A stretch of DNA of 20,049 nucleotides from Gallionellales bacterium GWA2_60_18. Lineage in GTDB: Bacteria; Pseudomonadota; Gammaproteobacteria; Burkholderiales; Gallionellaceae. How positions within the stretch are numbered: the stretch's first letter is position 1; every line of letters begins with the position of its first letter. The notes below the pieces were generated by a model that saw nothing but the letters and a program-made list of their open reading frames with translations, made no database searches and was not told the origin of the DNA. The position numbers and the translations under genes were made by a program. The stretch spans positions 3,056 through 23,104 of the forward strand of contig MGWS01000032.1 in NCBI GenBank assembly GCA_001801105.1. The letters are read 5' to 3'. Positions 15,262-20,049 of this stretch are shown piece after piece.

Positions 15262-16255
15262 GCGTCAGCACGATCTTGCCGGTCATGCCGCCCGCCTCGA
15301 TCATGCGGTGCGCCTCGGCGGCCTGCTCCAGCGGCAGCTTTTTCGTCACCAGCACGCCCAGACGTCCCGCCTCGACCAGTTGCGCGCCCTGTTCCAGTAT
15401 CTTGCGCTGGCGCACACGCTCCTCGTGCAGATTCATCACCTGCGGCGTGAGCATCAGTTCGAAACACAACGACAGGTTGCGCAGCCGTGCCTTCTGCACA
15501 TCGTCCTGCGTCAGCGCGGTGGCGAGCAGGCTGACCACCTTGCCGCCGATGCGCGCGGCATCGAGCGAGCGCAAGAAAGTGTCGCCGCCCACGGTATCGA
15601 ACACCACGTCCGCTCCCTTGCTTTCCGTCCAGTCCAGCACCTCCTGCACGAAATCCTGCGCGTGATAATCGACGATCTTCTCCGCGCCCAGACCGTGCAC
15701 CAGCCCGACCTTGCGGTCGCATCCGACTGTCACCGCGATGTGCGCGCCGAGATGATGCGCGAGTTGCAGCGCGACATGCCCGACACCGCCGGCGGCGGCA
15801 TGGATGAGTATCGTCTGCCCGGCTTGCAGGCCGGCGCGTTCGACCAATGCCTCCCACGCGGTGATCAGCACCAGCGGCAGCGCGGCGCTGTCCTGCAACG
15901 ACAGGTTGGCAGGCTTCGCGGCGCAGTAATCCTCGTGCAGCGTGGTGTATTCGGCGTAGCAGCCCGGCTCGTCGCCGATGCCGCCGTTGCAGAAATACAC
16001 TTCGTCGTTGACCCTGAAGCGCGTCACCTGTGCGCCCGCCGCCGTCACGATGCCCGCGCCGTCGCAGCCGAGGATGGCCGGCAGCTTGTCGGGATGATAG
16101 GCCGGCCTGGCGCGCAGCTTGGTGTCGAGCGGATTCACCCCGGCGGCGGCGAGCTTCACCAGCAGATGGTGCGGCGACGGCAGTTCCGGTTGCGGCACGT
16201 CATGCAGTTGCAAGACTTCGACGCCGCCTGCGGCGGTGGCGAGGATGGCTTTCAT
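15257..16255 (-). CDS. NAD(P)H:quinone oxidoreductase-like MDR-family protein
   Basis: A 332-residue medium-chain dehydrogenase/reductase of the zinc-free quinone reductase group. The N-terminal catalytic domain has [15 protein letters not shown] and LGCDGAGIV. The NADPH-binding Rossmann segment is [20 protein letters not shown] (about 150-170), followed by VDYHAQDF and FDTVGG. No structural-zinc Cys cluster is present. It probably reduces quinones or enones with NADPH; the physiological substrate is unknown. The TAG stop is part of a GTAGGAGCG repeat, so the last residues (GKIVLTL) abut the repeat. It is divergent from aroC, with a second palindromic repeat in the gap. Confidence 0.88.
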
Positions 16256-16271
16256 CTATGATTCTCCGTGT

Positions 16272-16304
16272 CCGTCATTATTCCGGCGCAGGCCGGAATG
16301 ACGG
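16272..16304. repeat. Interspersed palindrome between the quinone reductase gene and aroC
   Basis: CCGTCA-TTA-TTCCGGC (16272-16287) pairs with GCCGGAATGACGG (16292-16304) around a GCAG loop, with a 3-nt bulge. This TCATTCCGGCGCAGGCCGGAATGA type is, from memory, a repeat scattered through many proteobacterial genomes. It lies between two divergent starts, so it is part of the upstream region of both genes. Confidence 0.7.
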
Positions 16305-16362
16305 GTTATCGTCAATGGGCCGTATGTTAAACTTCGCGCACTCTTTTAGCGAGGCCACAGCC

Positions 16363-17457
16363 ATGTCTGGAAACACTTTCGGTAAGCTGTTCACCGTCAC
16401 TTCCTTCGGCGAATCGCACGGCGCGGCCATCGGCTGCATCGTCGACGGCTGCCCGCCGGGGATGGAATTGAGCGCCGCCTGCATCCAGCCCGACCTCGAC
16501 CGGCGCAAGCCCGGCACCTCGCGCCATGTCACGCAGCGTCAGGAGTCGGACACGGTGGAGATACTCTCCGGCGTGTTCGAAGGCAAGACCACCGGCACCC
16601 CCATCGCGCTACTGATTCGCAACGAAGACCAGCGCAGCAAGGACTACGGCAACATCGCCGACACCTTCCGCCCCGGCCACGCCGACTACACCTACTGGCA
16701 GAAATACGGCATTCGCGACCATCGCGGCGGCGGACGCGCCTCGGCGCGCGAGACCGCGGCGCGCGTGGCGGCGGGCGCCATCGCCAAGAAATGGCTGCAC
16801 GAACAATACGGCGTGTACGTGCAAGGCTATCTCGCGCAACTCGGCGAGATCGTGATCCCGTTCAAGAGCTGGGGCGACGTGACCGCCGACGGCAACAGCT
16901 TCTTCGTCGCCGACGCCAGCTATGTCGGCCAGTTGGAAGACTACATGGACGCGCTGCGCAAATCCGGCGACTCCATCGGCGCCAAGCTCGCCGTGGTGGC
17001 GCACAACGTCCCGGTGGGCTGGGGCGAGCCGGTGTTCGACCGGCTGGACGCCGACATCGCCCATGCGCTGATGGGTATCAACGCGGTCAAGGGTGTGGAG
17101 ATCGGCGCGGGCTTCGGCTGCGTCACGCAAAAAGGCAGCGAGCACGGCGACGAACTCACGCCGCAGGGCTTCTTATCGAACAACGCGGGCGGCATCCTCG
17201 GCGGCATCTCCACCGGGCAGGACATCGTCGCGCATTACGCGATCAAGCCGACTTCGAGCATTCGCATTGAACGCAACTCGATCAACAAGGCGGGGGAGGC
17301 GGTGAAGGTTTCTACCGAGGGCAGGCATGATCCCTGTGTGGGGATACGCGCTACGCCGATTGCGGAGGCGATGGTGGCGCTGGTGTTGATTGATCATGCT
17401 CTGCGCAATCGGGGGCAGTGTGGGGATGTGGTTTGTGAGACGCCAAAACTGCGTTGA
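16363..17457 (+). CDS. aroC: Chorismate synthase
   Basis: A 364-residue enzyme that converts 5-enolpyruvylshikimate-3-phosphate to chorismate using reduced FMN, the last common step of aromatic amino acid synthesis. Family signatures are intact: [18 protein letters not shown] near the N-terminus (16-33), [20 protein letters not shown] (about 103), [40 protein letters not shown] and [18 protein letters not shown] near the end. Length is standard. The ATG at 16363 has GAGG eight bases upstream and gives the conserved N-terminus; the upstream open frame continues into the quinone reductase region without homology. Its TGA overlaps a possible TTG start of the next gene. Confidence 0.97.
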
Positions 17458-17471
17458 GCCCCACTTTAGAT

Positions 17472-17897
17472 ATGGCTGATCTTCAGGAGAGCGCGCAGCT
17501 AAACGAGCTATACCGGCTTTACGGAATAGCTGCTCACAATTGCAGCAATATCGAATACCGAATCGTGTATCTGCTATTGGGTCCGAAATGGAAGCAAACA
17601 GCTAACCTCAACTCGGAAATAGTAGTGGAAATTTACGATAAGCTTCAGCGCCTACCTTTGGGCGTCTTGCTCAAGGAGTACAAGCAACACTTCATTTTTT
17701 CTGATAAGCAACGTGAGCTAATGGATTCTGTGCTAGAAAAACGAAACTATCTGATGCACCGTTTTTTCGGTGCGTATGGAAAGAAGATGCACGACCCAAG
17801 GGTGCAAGAACAAATGATCTCTGAATTGAAAGATCTCACGTCCATCTTTCAGTCGGTATCGCGATCACTAGATCCGGAGACATGGAAGCAAGCGTAG
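17472..17897 (+). CDS. HEPN-like small alpha-helical protein (putative RNase)
   Basis: A 141-residue, predicted all-helical protein with RNYLMHRFF at 91-99. This is an R-x4-H motif at the start of a helix, as in the catalytic motif of HEPN-domain RNases. The rest is compatible: an N-terminal helix with HNCSNIEYRIVYLLL and a C-terminal helix. Base composition is visibly more AT-rich than in the neighbours, which suggests recent acquisition. No nucleotidyltransferase-type antitoxin partner is seen next to it. ATG 17472 is chosen; an alternative TTG at 17454 overlaps the aroC stop and would add six residues. Neither has a good ribosome binding site. The TAG stop lies in a GTAGGATGGGTT repeat. 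Function is inferred only from the motif. Confidence 0.7.
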   Translation: MADLQESAQLNELYRLYGIAAHNCSNIEYRIVYLLLGPKWKQTANLNSEIVVEIYDKLQRLPLGVLLKEYKQHFIFSDKQRELMDSVLEKRNYLMHRFFGAYGKKMHDPRVQEQMISELKDLTSIFQSVSRSLDPETWKQA

Positions 17898-17954
17898 GAT
17901 GGGTTGAACCCTTCGACTGCGCTCAGGATAAACTCTGCGATATCCATCAAAATC
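17894..17954 (+). repeat. GTAGGATGGGTT-type repeat at the end of the HEPN-like gene
   Basis: The sequence GTAGGATGGGTTGAACCC starts at 17894 and provides the gene's TAG stop. It continues into CTTCGACTGCGCTCAGGAT, another word I recall from interspersed intergenic repeats, and ends near CCATC. The outer limit of the repeat is uncertain. No gene is visible. Confidence 0.5.
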
Positions 17955-18186
17955 GCCGGGGGTTGCCCGGCAGCAAGTTCCTTTCTTTTGCTTCGCCAAA
18001 AGAAAGGAACCAAAGAAAAGGCGACCCTGGTTTGCCGCCCCTGCGGGGTGCCCTCGATCAGATGCAAACGAGCGGGGCTGCGCAACTCGCACGATCCGCT
18101 ACGCGGCCACGTGCTCAAACAGTGCTCGCCTAACATCACCGCTCGTTTGCATCTGATCGAGGCGGCGCTCAAGGGAAGGTAAGTCA
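17955..18186 (+). repeat. Structured repeat element, copy A
   Basis: A 232-nt element with four ordered hairpins. H1 is GCCGGG-GGTTG-CCCGGC (17955-17971). H2 is a perfect 14-bp stem, GTTCCTTTCTTTTG (17977-17990) with CAAAAGAAAGGAAC (17997-18010), and loop CTTCGC. H3 is CCCC-TGC-GGGG (18038-18048). A long perfect 24-bp arm (18052-18075 with 18139-18162) encloses H4, CCGC-TAC-GCGG (18096-18106). The end is AAGTCA (18181-18186). Copy B on the other strand has the same order and loops but compensated stems. Short open frames here are translations of the repeat, not genes. Confidence 0.85.
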
Positions 18187-18199
18187 AAGGCGGTTTTGT

Positions 18200-18222
18200 G
18201 TGCGCTGCGCGCACGTTTTTTT
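18200..18222 (+). terminator. Rho-independent terminator (+ strand)
   Basis: GTGCGC (18200-18205), loop TGC and GCGCAC (18209-18214) are followed by G and seven T residues (18216-18222). This is a standard intrinsic terminator for rightward transcripts from aroC and the HEPN-like gene, reading through repeat copy A. Confidence 0.7.
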
Positions 18223-18228
18223 GTGTTG

Positions 18229-18252
18229 GTGAGGCGGGCGTGCCCGCCTCAC
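18229..18252. other. Perfect 11-bp hairpin between the two repeat copies
   Basis: GTGAGGCGGGC (18229-18239) and GCCCGCCTCAC (18242-18252) pair perfectly around GT. It stands between the terminator and copy B. It may be a terminator or another short interspersed palindrome; downstream on the + strand is a GT-rich stretch without a clean T-run. Confidence 0.6.
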
Positions 18253-18286
18253 TGGTTTTGGATTTTGGGGTTCGGGTTTCGGCTTA

Positions 18287-18500
18287 TGACTTTCCTCCCC
18301 TGTGCGCCGCCGAGTAGCGCAGGCTGGTCAGGGGATGTCGGCGAGGACTGTCTGAGCGCGTAGCGCGAGTTCCGCAGCCGCCTGACCAGTCGAGCAACGC
18401 AGGGAACCGCGAAGCGGCGGTAAGCTGGGGTCGCCTTCTTTTTGGTTACTTTTTCTTGGCGAAGCAAGAAAAAGTAACTAGCTGTCGGGCTACCCCCGAC
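18287..18500 (-). repeat. Structured repeat element, copy B
   Basis: A 214-nt inverted counterpart of copy A, read on the minus strand from 18500. H1 is GTCGGG-GGTAG-CCCGAC (18500-18484). H2 is GTTACTTTTTCTTG-CTTCGC-CAAGAAAAAGTAAC as a perfect 14-bp stem (18478-18445). H3 is CCGC-TTC-GCGG (18417-18407). The arm pair is CTGGTCAGG and CCTGACCAG, enclosing H4, GCGC-TAC-GCGC (18366-18356). It ends in AAGTCA (18292-18287). Shared single-stranded words with copy A include AAGGCGACCC, AACTCGC and CTCGCC. Stems differ from copy A but stay paired. Confidence 0.85.
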
Positions 18501-18506
18501 GGTGTT

Positions 18507-18544
18507 GGTGTTGGATTACGCACCGTGCGCCAACCCAACCTACG
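18507..18544 (-). repeat. GTAGGTTGGGTT...AATCCAACA interspersed repeat
   Basis: On the minus strand the sequence starts GTAGGTTGGGTTGGCGCACG at 18544 and ends TAATCCAACA. From memory this matches a very common proteobacterial intergenic repeat of the form GTAGGTTGGG...CCCAACA. It abuts copy B of the structured element. Confidence 0.6.
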
Positions 18545-18570
18545 GAACTGTTAGCGGCGGATATTTTCGC

Positions 18571-18598
18571 GTGGGCACAAAAAACGTGCCCACCCTAC
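18571..18598 (-). repeat. GTAGGGTGGGCAC hairpin at the 3' end of the glycosyltransferase gene
   Basis: On the minus strand GTAGGGTGGGCAC is followed by GTTTTTT and GTGCCCAC, giving an 8-bp stem (18586-18593 with 18571-18578). The TAG of the glycosyltransferase gene (18597-18595) is inside the repeat's GTAGGG head. It may also act as the gene's 3' hairpin, but the T-run is in the loop rather than after the stem. Confidence 0.65.
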
Positions 18599-20049
18599 AA
18601 CTTCCGGTATAGCCGGTAATGCTCGTTCTTGTCGCCCTTGCGGCTGCCTTCCCAGATTTTCTTCCAGCGTTTTTCGTCCAGCAGCGGCTTGGATAGCCGG
18701 TCGCCCTGGATCAGGCGCAGGTCGCAGCGTTCGTGGCGGTCTTCGCGCGTGAGGATGCCGCCGAAGTAATGCAGCATGGCGCGCTGGCCGTCGCCGAGGT
18801 AGTCGCGCCCGACGCACTGGTATTTTGTCGGCATGGCGTGTTTCATCGAGGCGACCATGTGGCGGTAGCTCTTGCCGCTGTCCAGCCAGGGCAGCCAGAT
18901 CGTCATGGCGAGTATCCATAGCAGGGTGATGCCCGCCGCCCAGTTCACCACGGCACGGCGCATCGAGCGGCCGACGCGCCACACCAGCACCAGCCACAGC
19001 ACCGTGGCGATGACCGCGATGACGAAAGGCGTGGTCTGGAATTCCGGATCGAAGCCGGGCTGGTAGTCCTTCAGCCAGCGCGTGATCTTGGCGTGGTTGT
19101 CCAGCAGCAGTCCGGCCCAGCCCCACCACATCGCGATGGCGAGCAAGGCGAAGGTCATCAGGCCGAACCAGTCGAGCGCGTTGGCCGCGCCGCGCCGGAG
19201 TGCGGACAGTGAGGCGGTGGCGAGCAGGGCGAGCGGCAGCAGCATCGGCAGCGCGAATACTTCCTTGATGTCGGGCACGAAGCTGAGCGTCACCAGCATC
19301 ACGCCGAATGCGACCAGCGGCAGTTGCAGGTCGTCGCGCTGCGCCAGGCGGCGGCGCGACTGCCACACCACCCAAGCCGCCAGCGGCAGCGCGGGCCACG
19401 CCAGCCAGGGCAGGTTCTTCAGATAGTAGAACGATTCGTGTGTCGGGCCGCGTCCGGCATAGTCCAGCCAGTTGCCGATGTTGTGTGTCCACGCCCAGTC
19501 GGCGAACAGTTGCGGCGAGTGCAGGTACAGCAGCAGCGGCCATATAATGAGCCAGGGCAGGGCGCACAGCGCGGCGACGGCGAGGCTGGAAAGATAGCGG
19601 CGCACGCGCCACTGGGAGAATAGCGCGGGCAGCGCGGCGGCGATCAGCACGAACAGCAGCGGTGCGATGAAGCCCTTGGACATGAAACCGATGCCCATGC
19701 CGGTGCCGATCAGCAGGCCGGCGCGCACGCTGCGTTCCTGGCTGAGCGTGAAGCCGTACAGCATCATCGCGCAGCCGGCCAGCAGGCCGAGGTCGGTGAT
19801 CATCTGGTGCGCGCGCACCAGCATGCCGAGGCAGCCGATCAGGATGATGGCGGCGGCCCAGCCGCGGTTCTCGCCGTACAGTCTGCGCCCGGCCAGCCCG
19901 GTGAACAGCAGTGCGAGCGCGGTATAGAAACCGCTCGCCAAGCGCGCGCCGTCATGCAGCGGCAGCAGCGGTGCGAACAGTTTGGCAGACAGCGCGGCGC
20001 TCCAGTAGAACAGCGGCGGCTTGTCCAGATACGGCTCGCCCGCGAGCAT
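18595..20049 (-). CDS. GT-C family membrane glycosyltransferase, ArnT/PMT-like (N-terminus outside the window)
   Basis: At least 484 residues of an inner-membrane glycosyltransferase of the dolichyl-phosphate-mannose/ArnT (GT39/GT83-like) class, which transfers a sugar from a polyprenyl-phosphate donor to lipid A or another periplasmic acceptor. The visible start contains GEPYLDKPPLFYW, the conserved motif that normally follows about 60 residues including the catalytic acidic loop, so the gene begins beyond 20049 and the ATG there is not its start. About ten hydrophobic helices are visible, then a soluble C-terminal domain (about 370-484). The IKEVFALPMLLPLALLA segment resembles the K-x-x-Y/F-LP motif of ArnT homologues. 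The donor and acceptor are not determinable. The TAG stop lies in a repeat. Confidence 0.85.
   Translation of the reverse strand: MLAGEPYLDKPPLFYWSAALSAKLFAPLLPLHDGARLASGFYTALALLFTGLAGRRLYGENRGWAAAIILIGCLGMLVRAHQMITDLGLLAGCAMMLYGFTLSQERSVRAGLLIGTGMGIGFMSKGFIAPLLFVLIAAALPALFSQWRVRRYLSSLAVAALCALPWLIIWPLLLYLHSPQLFADWAWTHNIGNWLDYAGRGPTHESFYYLKNLPWLAWPALPLAAWVVWQSRRRLAQRDDLQLPLVAFGVMLVTLSFVPDIKEVFALPMLLPLALLATASLSALRRGAANALDWFGLMTFALLAIAMWWGWAGLLLDNHAKITRWLKDYQPGFDPEFQTTPFVIAVIATVLWLVLVWRVGRSMRRAVVNWAAGITLLWILAMTIWLPWLDSGKSYRHMVASMKHAMPTKYQCVGRDYLGDGQRAMLHYFGGILTREDRHERCDLRLIQGDRLSKPLLDEKRWKKIWEGSRKGDKNEHYRLYRKL

Follow-up and report, generated by a model that had tools for sequence, protein, structure and literature searches.

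Two structured copies in the window (the whole stretch of DNA that was analysed, 20,049 nucleotides) were best explained as the inverted ends of a mobile element that is cassette-like, non-autonomous and widespread, here in a compact copy without cargo, a reading to which a probability of roughly 0.64 was assigned. The original prediction had placed copy A at 17955-18186 on the plus strand and copy B at 18500-18287 on the minus strand, and both were recovered, with an inverted repeat of 110 nt (79% complementary) joining 17945-18054 to 18401-18510. Together, A and B bound a single unit at approximately 17,947-18,505 as its inverted ends; the outer limits were placed by reference to the points at which two copies of one cassette, located at different loci, cease to be homologous. 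Both the fold and the unit as such are well supported. The structured strand that reads outward from the unit (termed R) is the minus strand at the left end (copy A, 17947-18190, the inverted partner of B, with the same core as the collected copies) and the plus strand at the right end (copy B, 18287-18505, the inverted partner of A). R is opposite to the strand that had been read before; this functional polarity, the placing of hairpin H2 in a pseudoknot with a triple-helix signature, and the recognition of A and B as two ends of one unit all go beyond the earlier description.

Between the ends lies a centre of 100 bases (18187-18286) with two hairpins carrying T-rich tails (18198-18224 and 18225-18266), at the place where many relatives hold cargo genes. 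The window unit is of the compact kind, with cores 450 bp apart, and is resembled by a compact unit of genome G700 (71% over 606 columns). Its neighbours are a plus-strand ORF at 17454-17897, which had no Pfam match, and a minus-strand ORF with its stop at 18595; no promoter-like sites were found in the window stretch of the unit. REP-like repeats (GTAGGATGGGTTGA..ATCCATC and, on the minus strand, a relative CGTAGGTTGGGTTGG..AATCCAAC) adjoin both outer ends at 17894-17948 and 18510-18543 and are a separate thing from the unit; the same kind of repeat was seen upstream of a RAYT-like gene (by eye) in loci L352 and L359.

Each end is approximately 210 nt long and on R runs from a branched domain through a first pseudoknot (PK1) to, in about half of the flanks, a second (PK2). 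PK1 is an H-type pseudoknot in which a segment a is followed by eight pyrimidines, one G, the 5' arm of H2, a loop with the complementary a', and the purine arm, and its loop strand and the main stem's purine arm are parallel. To judge from the letters, the pyrimidine strand lies along the H2 stem as the third strand of a triple helix would, with U.A-U, C+.G-C and G over a T-A inversion as the proposed triplets. At the left end (minus strand), the 14-bp H2 stem with its loop GCGAAG occupies 17977-18010 as a perfect inverted repeat with pair covariation, and its purine arm lies at 17982-17989. The putative third strand TTTTCTTT (18012-18019) runs parallel to the purine arm AAAAGAAA, and the segment TCGCC (18020-18024) pairs with GGCGA of the H2 loop (17993-17997) to close PK1, a helix that covaries across classes. 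PK2 of this end (17955-17976; TTGC/GCAA and GCCGG/CCGGC) was identified in the sequence and by counting flanks against shuffles, and the branched domain (18025-18186) contains hairpin H3, a variable arm of 24 bp and an internal motif (AACTCGC at 18084-18090 and GCTCAAACA at 18113-18121, letters given on the plus strand). At the right end (plus strand), the branched domain spans 18287-18426, with the motif TGTCTGAGC at 18349-18357 and GCGAGTT at 18365-18371. It is followed by TCGCC (18431-18435), which closes PK1 by pairing with GGCGA of the H2 loop (18458-18462), by the putative third strand TTCTTTTT (18436-18443), parallel to the purine arm AAGAAAAA (18466-18473), by the 14-bp H2 stem and loop (18445-18478), and by PK2 (18479-18500), in which TAGC/GCTA (18479-18482 and 18489-18492) and GTCGG/CCGAC (18484-18488 and 18496-18500) pair.

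Both H2 hairpins of the window are perfect 14-bp stems. Alignment of A with B bore out the reported changes on both sides of the H2 stem at positions 4, 9 and 11, as well as a C-G to G-C change in H3; the loops CTTCGC and TAC are kept in both copies, and the long arm is perfect in A and of another sequence in B, all as originally described. Two readings were revised. What had been described as hairpin H1 makes a better PK2 when the opposite strand is read, and the linker after H2, which had been noted as shared linker words, is present in both copies and tracks H2 in mirror register rather than being passive.

All eight triplets (T.A, C.G or G.T) were kept in 160 of the 162 pattern matches in the loci collected, every one of which was counted, and were broken in the remaining two; 2000 shuffles gave a mean of 87.6 and a maximum of 101. 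By distinct combinations, the rule held in 13/15, a value reached by 0 of 5000 shuffles. The tracked strand is the purine arm, as Hoogsteen contacts would predict, and the H2 arms were fully paired over the same eight positions in 146/162 copies. Besides the two pairs of the window, purine arms and third strands changed together in AAGAGAAA with TTCTCTTT, AAAATAAA with TTTTGTTT and AAAAGAAG with TTTTCTTC. Antiparallel pairing between the linker and H2 could be discarded, as no copy was fully in register and the best shifted register fitted 114/162 copies, against 160 for the parallel arrangement. A purine-motif triplex on the other strand was judged less likely since G over T-A is a pyrimidine-motif rule, reportedly that of Griffin and Dervan in 1989. 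It is also disfavoured because purine-motif triplexes cannot form in RNA, according to the available part of PMC4666352.

The loop helix follows suit. Segment a and the loop pair as TCGCC/GGCGA, TGGCC/GGCCA, GTGCCC/GGGCAC, TGTGC/GCACA, CAAC/GTTG, CTTGAA/TTCAAG and others, and pseudoknot and triplex were jointly possible in 40 of 49 loop classes (300 permutations of the upstream parts: mean 21.2, maximum 29). Some of the nine failing classes were misparsed, a parsing error that the 49 still include, and some are truly weak (L195). Pair counting in 17 equal-length sequences, picked for diversity out of 254, gave 98.0% of cells paired against 85.5% in shuffles (0/500 shuffles reached the observed value) and double changes at 10 of 18 pairs, and the signal was lost when partners were slid. 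The changes in stem, third strand and loop helix are concerted, and the three covary in the order of an H-type pseudoknot with a triple helix; by this measure the ends appear to be kept by fold more than by sequence. Selection on the folded form, proposed originally over recent duplication, is supported by the covariation, which persists in these wider samples and makes the case stronger than the two copies alone could. Of the 154 distinct 3' flanks, 76 could form PK2 (mean 12.9 and maximum 20 in 20 mononucleotide shuffles), which leaves about half of the flanks without it by the criteria used. H3-like hairpins with a three-base loop were present in 101 of the 122 copies read, and the loop was TNC in 81.

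Mismatches on R were G.U in 66 cases, A.C in 3 and other in 34, across 92 unique hairpins (1239 pairs), part of which came from patterns that fix some stem letters; hairpins derived from the model alone (n = 64) gave 51 G.U and 3 A.C. Three sites, L200, the second site of L207 and the first site of L206, had been dropped before counting as misparsed or likely false. The large excess of G.U over A.C on R fixes the polarity of the strand, although it does not prove an RNA form, because G.T is better tolerated than A.C in DNA too. The G.U bias would amount to such G.T tolerance if the repeat were instead a DNA-level H-DNA element akin to BoxC/PIT/TM-ECO, acting as a replication block or an instability motif. 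In duplex DNA the repeat has mirror symmetry, and deletion remnants were found at end sequences (L353 and L354), as this alternative would have it, yet the loop helix covaries with the linker and a pseudoknot is superfluous for H-DNA. The deep groove of A-form RNA suits a one-nucleotide bridge over five base pairs better than B-DNA does, and the single nucleotide that bridges five base pairs here would fit the former. Intrastrand triplex repeats are abundant in bacteria, but TM-ECO is a G/C-rich purine motif, both as given in the available part of PMC4666352. Taken together, an H-DNA element was considered unlikely, at long odds.

The mobile-element reading draws on a wider collection of copies. 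A pattern made from A and B with stem and third-strand positions left free matched twice in the window (by construction) and in 0 of 100 shuffles. As a check independent of the window, a pattern with free stem and linker was applied elsewhere; 24 places were matched in 9 of 200 genomes of one order, and the reversed control matched none. The core pattern matched at least 120 stretches in genome contigs, several genomes more than once, and the matches listed were from Pseudomonadota, mostly Beta- and Gammaproteobacteria. The expectation that many copies could be gathered with a covariance model was borne out in many genomes. The model, built on the 52-nt core, matched in 24 of 150 genomes across the phylum (E up to 0.001), and copies were carried by 30/34 genomes in the genus of G001 (1e-6), 17/17 in the genus of G675 and 10/17 in the genus of G275. 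Copies numbered up to 23 per genome (G727 23, G001 12, G724 11, G729 11, G699 10); these copies are related to one another, such that the counts overstate independent events, and some of the genomes are fragmentary.

Relatives were found in Pseudomonadota, Bacteroidota and Fusobacteriota. Blastn of A and B against plasmids returned one record each, leading to copies in Ilyobacter and Variovorax, and a Bacteroidetes repeat used as query led to copies in Parabacteroides and Aureibacter and to a further Ilyobacter copy. The internal motif is TGTTTGAGC..GCGAGTT in the Parabacteroides and Aureibacter copies, the counterpart of TGTCTGAGC..GCGAGTT in copy B, and was absent from the Methylobacter copies. 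A single stretch in IMG/VR carried either pattern. One Aureibacter copy (L250, plasmid pAT6, 1001-1038) lies between Cas5/Csc1 and Cas7/Csc2 of a type I-D system, by annotation. No named family had been put forward for the element, and a Rfam 15 search of the whole window gave 0 matches at the gathering score. By E-value, 17880-18620 gave nine matches, all far below gathering (best E 0.16), and three loci of other phyla gave a single match (E 0.68) outside the element. The repeat strings were not found in the literature searched, and no described element or cassette system of this design was found there either, mostly at the level of titles and abstract openings.

Neighbouring copies are arranged as ends. 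Among the matches listed in the three genera, opposite-strand neighbours within 2.5 kb were outward in 63 cases and inward in 2, and the window pair is outward. The outward share among these matches was 36/36 in the genus of G001, 15/15 in that of G675 and 12/14 in that of G275; single-place contigs and overlapping opposite-strand matches on one hairpin were left out of the latter two counts. Same-strand neighbours within 2.5 kb numbered 1 and 11 in the genera of G001 and G675, respectively (among matches listed), and 0 in that of G275; some of the 11 belong to arrays spaced 50-163 bp. Spacing fell into two ranges among the matches listed in the genus of G001 (352-559 bp in 17 pairs, 908-1816 bp in 19 pairs) and of G675 (346-623 bp in 7/15, 1007-2111 bp in 8), and was 333-421 bp in 11/12 pairs of the genus of G275, with one pair at 1376 bp. 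In two of the three genera, about half of the pairs enclose 0.9-2.1 kb with accessory genes. The 36 pairs in the genus of G001 account for 72 of its 150 listed places; the other 78 are unpaired among the matches listed, contig ends also counting toward missing partners. One outward pair each was found in Parabacteroides, Ilyobacter and Variovorax. At a looser threshold (E up to 0.01), outside the three genera, outward pairs were present at 15 loci and inward pairs, 104-168 bp apart, at 7 (L187, L196, L201, L239, L246, L247 and L249, from genomes G658, G166, G619 and G631); the inward pairs might be touching neighbouring units or another arrangement in those families. In genome G735 (C1, C5, C44 and C51), weak same-strand matches 50-163 bp apart form short arrays unlike the two-ended unit.

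Evidence of movement was obtained from individual loci. One cassette, consisting of a 137-aa cargo and two ends, is present in G727 and G729 (1018 bp at 85%); the matching stretch reaches from approximately 12 bases beyond one PK2 into the other, and the flanks, searched over approximately 1.1 kb on either side, gave no match. This cassette sits at two unrelated loci, and homology ends at its ends. Homologous cargo (53% identical) lies at different loci in G724 and G700, and besides the unit these two loci have a single common match of 105 bp. The original proposal of a structured RNA or a hairpin-dependent mobile element gains support from the multiple copies and from this one cassette at two unrelated loci, and its two alternatives seem to describe the same thing from different sides, namely a mobile unit with structured ends.

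Orthologous sites with and without units were found at two loci. At a convergent glmM/pstB locus (by eye), where 18 of 20 fetched regions were read (L284 and L285 were left out), units are present in G001, G724 and G700, while 12 regions have a short spacer and a terminator-like hairpin (imperfect in L275) and three (L272, L273 and L274) have a PK2-like remnant alone. Across this convergent gene pair (L267-L283 compared with L279, L280 and L286), the unit was seen at the position that a bidirectional terminator-like hairpin occupies in relatives. The second locus could be read at both ends in G699 and G720, whose cargo differs (HEPN in G699, a 236-aa ORF in G720); in G700, G711, G727 and G703 the left end, if not both, is present and is followed by other ORFs, and short spacers were found in G728 (62 bp), G706 (75 bp) and G708 (35 bp). 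One flank with a high-copy repeat was left out of the site comparison.

That the unit takes the place of an ordinary bidirectional terminator hairpin at the glmM/pstB-type locus is what would be expected if the ends served the host only, as a structured RNA that acts as bidirectional terminator or mRNA 3'-end stabiliser and is spread by recombination, with genes enclosed by accident. The window stretch has an excess of terminator-like sites (10 against 1.2 in shuffles), and the H2 side tends to be turned toward gene ends, as in 73 of 115 classifiable copies (of the 162 copies, 31 are near locus ends and 16 inside a long ORF). Just 34 of these 115 sites, however, are between convergent genes, and a simple hairpin terminator would need no conserved third strand. 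A purely host-serving RNA also fits poorly with the same cassette at unrelated loci with homology stopping at the ends, with the mostly ends-outward order with varied cargo inside, and with up to 23 copies per genome, and it was regarded as unlikely.

The different genes beside such ends in different species at the second locus, and the end modules common to different copies, could also result from homologous recombination alone, with the multi-copy ends as landing pads between which cargo is swapped without a dedicated enzyme. Recombination by itself leaves unexplained both the upkeep of the fold, notably of the third strand, and the new sites for one cassette, and as the whole explanation it was thought quite improbable; cassette exchange may act on top of a trans-acting enzyme.

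In Methylobacter, the structured core lies inside a MITE with 5-bp duplications (by eye, five copies) and not in an inverted pair. The autonomous partner of this MITE is likely a 1107-bp IS with the same ends; in G566 (L155, L162, L157, L178 and L167), the IS ends ACTGATGTTACGC are common to the MITEs; of those read, the structured core is present in two, of 321 and 331 bp, and absent from one of 106 bp. Outside Methylobacter, no target-site duplication was seen by eye.

Cargo was examined in 20 regions fetched from the genus of G001 (19 long pairs and L335, the second end of which was obtained in another search). An ORF of more than 100 aa lies between the ends in 18 of them, and the other two (L325 and L328, both cut by contig ends) have an ORF of 67 or 69 aa. 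Pfam matches above the cut-off were obtained for 4 of 17 cargo proteins (RES, RelA_SpoT, CoiA_N and RiboL-PSP-HEPN) and not for the other 13. Among ten cargo proteins compared with PADLOC, one matched PDC-S33 at 3e-104, one the TIR effector model at 2.7e-6, and two further matches were near 0.003. The PDC-S33 cargo is a candidate defence gene of RelA/SpoT type, and some of the cargo looks like anti-phage defence genes. Nine long units of the two other genera contain ORFs of 67-280 aa, among which a toxin-antitoxin-like pair and DUF2971-like, lipoprotein-like and transposase-like ORFs were recognised by eye. In one unit (L392, G730), an antitoxin-toxin-like pair of short ORFs stands with a DUF2971-like ORF (by eye).

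Across the loci of at least 2,500 bases among L001-L149 (833 ORFs), no protein family was found near most copies, nor did a mobilising enzyme come to light. The idea that one particular neighbouring gene has a constant regulatory part was rejected, the largest ORF groups (23 and 8 loci) looking, by eye, like the element itself read as protein. The group of 23 loci (..RQKKVTKKKAT..) is probably a spurious ORF family that annotation may call hypothetical proteins. Next in size are a group of 9 loci and a blastp group of 7 (L022, L034, L037, L070, L127, L128 and L146) in which a gene resembling chorismate synthase (by eye) is close to the element. Another such gene was seen in the window at 16030-17457; this neighbourhood is a candidate for a recurrent or inherited site of the element.

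Under the mobile-element reading, an enzyme supplied in trans would recognise R in its folded state, whether RNA or single-stranded DNA, and move or exchange the unit. The inverted order of the ends means that any transcript or strand running out of the unit has the R form at its end. With the same fold at the end of both strands, one polymerase or recombinase could start on either, as would be expected of copying through an RNA or single-stranded DNA intermediate. The knot could also serve as an exit terminator or 3' stabiliser, in which case insertion beside gene ends would be tolerable. That these cassettes make up a new class of mobile element, with ends in at least three phyla and with mobility through a pseudoknot-triple-helix at the 3' end of each strand, is a tentative proposal that we hold at somewhat below even odds; on this proposal, the cassettes would amount to a large store, so far uncatalogued, of accessory and anti-phage functions carried as single genes. 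If the main reading is right, many bacterial genomes hold a class of cassettes that annotation has missed because the ends are conserved in fold rather than in sequence, and the ends offer a handle for collecting cargo genes. The triple helix would provide, within a family of bacterial repeats, a naturally occurring example of third-strand rules (T over A-T, C over G-C, G over a T-A inversion) that are readable from evolution.

Several known systems share features with the unit. As with REP, REPIN and BIME repeats and their RAYT transposases, the copies are multi-copy, intergenic, non-autonomous and present as inverted doublets. REP sequences are palindromes with a GTAG-type tetranucleotide and have a RAYT partner. 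They measure 20-40 bp according to the available part of PMC4666352, unlike the ends of the unit, which reach approximately 210 nt, have several helices and can enclose genes. By Pfam, no Y1 transposase was found among the 17 cargo proteins, and two genomes had a RAYT-like gene (by eye) at one locus. Mobile insertion cassettes and MITEs, as far as the available sources describe them, resemble the unit in having a passenger gene or nothing between inverted ends and no transposase found inside, and inverted terminal repeats are present in the window's relatives, with AACACCGTCGGGGG / CCCCCGACGGTGTT or near variants outermost. Known MITEs and mobile insertion cassettes have the sequence-conserved terminal repeats of a DDE transposon with target duplications; among the present copies, such repeats with target duplications were seen by eye in Methylobacter and not elsewhere.

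BoxC/PIT/TM-ECO is likewise a multi-copy bacterial triplex motif, with the G/C-rich purine consensus CCCTCNCCC...GGGNGAGGG...GGGNGAGGG and, as described in the available part of PMC4666352, with neither a loop helix nor a cargo unit. The window core departs from this consensus, being a putative pyrimidine-motif, A/T-rich triplex on R. G/C-rich CTCCC..GGGAGAGGG repeats (BoxC/PIT-like by eye) were seen beside or inside units at L003 and L286, and thus two unrelated triplex-prone repeats share sites.

Telomerase RNA contains an H-type pseudoknot with a triple helix, and a loop strand runs along the pseudoknot helix in the same topology as that proposed here. The guanidine-III riboswitch is of the same kind, according to the available part of PMC5696562. 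Neither is known as a dispersed repeat or as the end of a mobile unit, unlike the present ends.

Integron cassettes are mostly single accessory genes beside folded attC sites that are kept by structure over sequence, and are defined by one attC-type site per gene in direct order. A derivation of the units from integron cassettes with aberrant attC sites would account for the single accessory genes, and an integrase exceeded the cut-off in 15 of 34 genomes, all 15 of which carry copies (against 15/19 of the others). The ends nevertheless form inverted pairs (63 against 2 among matches listed) and not single sites in direct order, and the copy-rich genomes G727, G001, G724, G729 and G699, which may be incomplete, had no integrase over the cut-off; this derivation was considered highly improbable. 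The units share with integron cassettes accessory genes next to fold-conserved sites, and differ in having two inverted ends per gene, each of approximately 210 nt and bearing the signature of a pseudoknot and a triplex.
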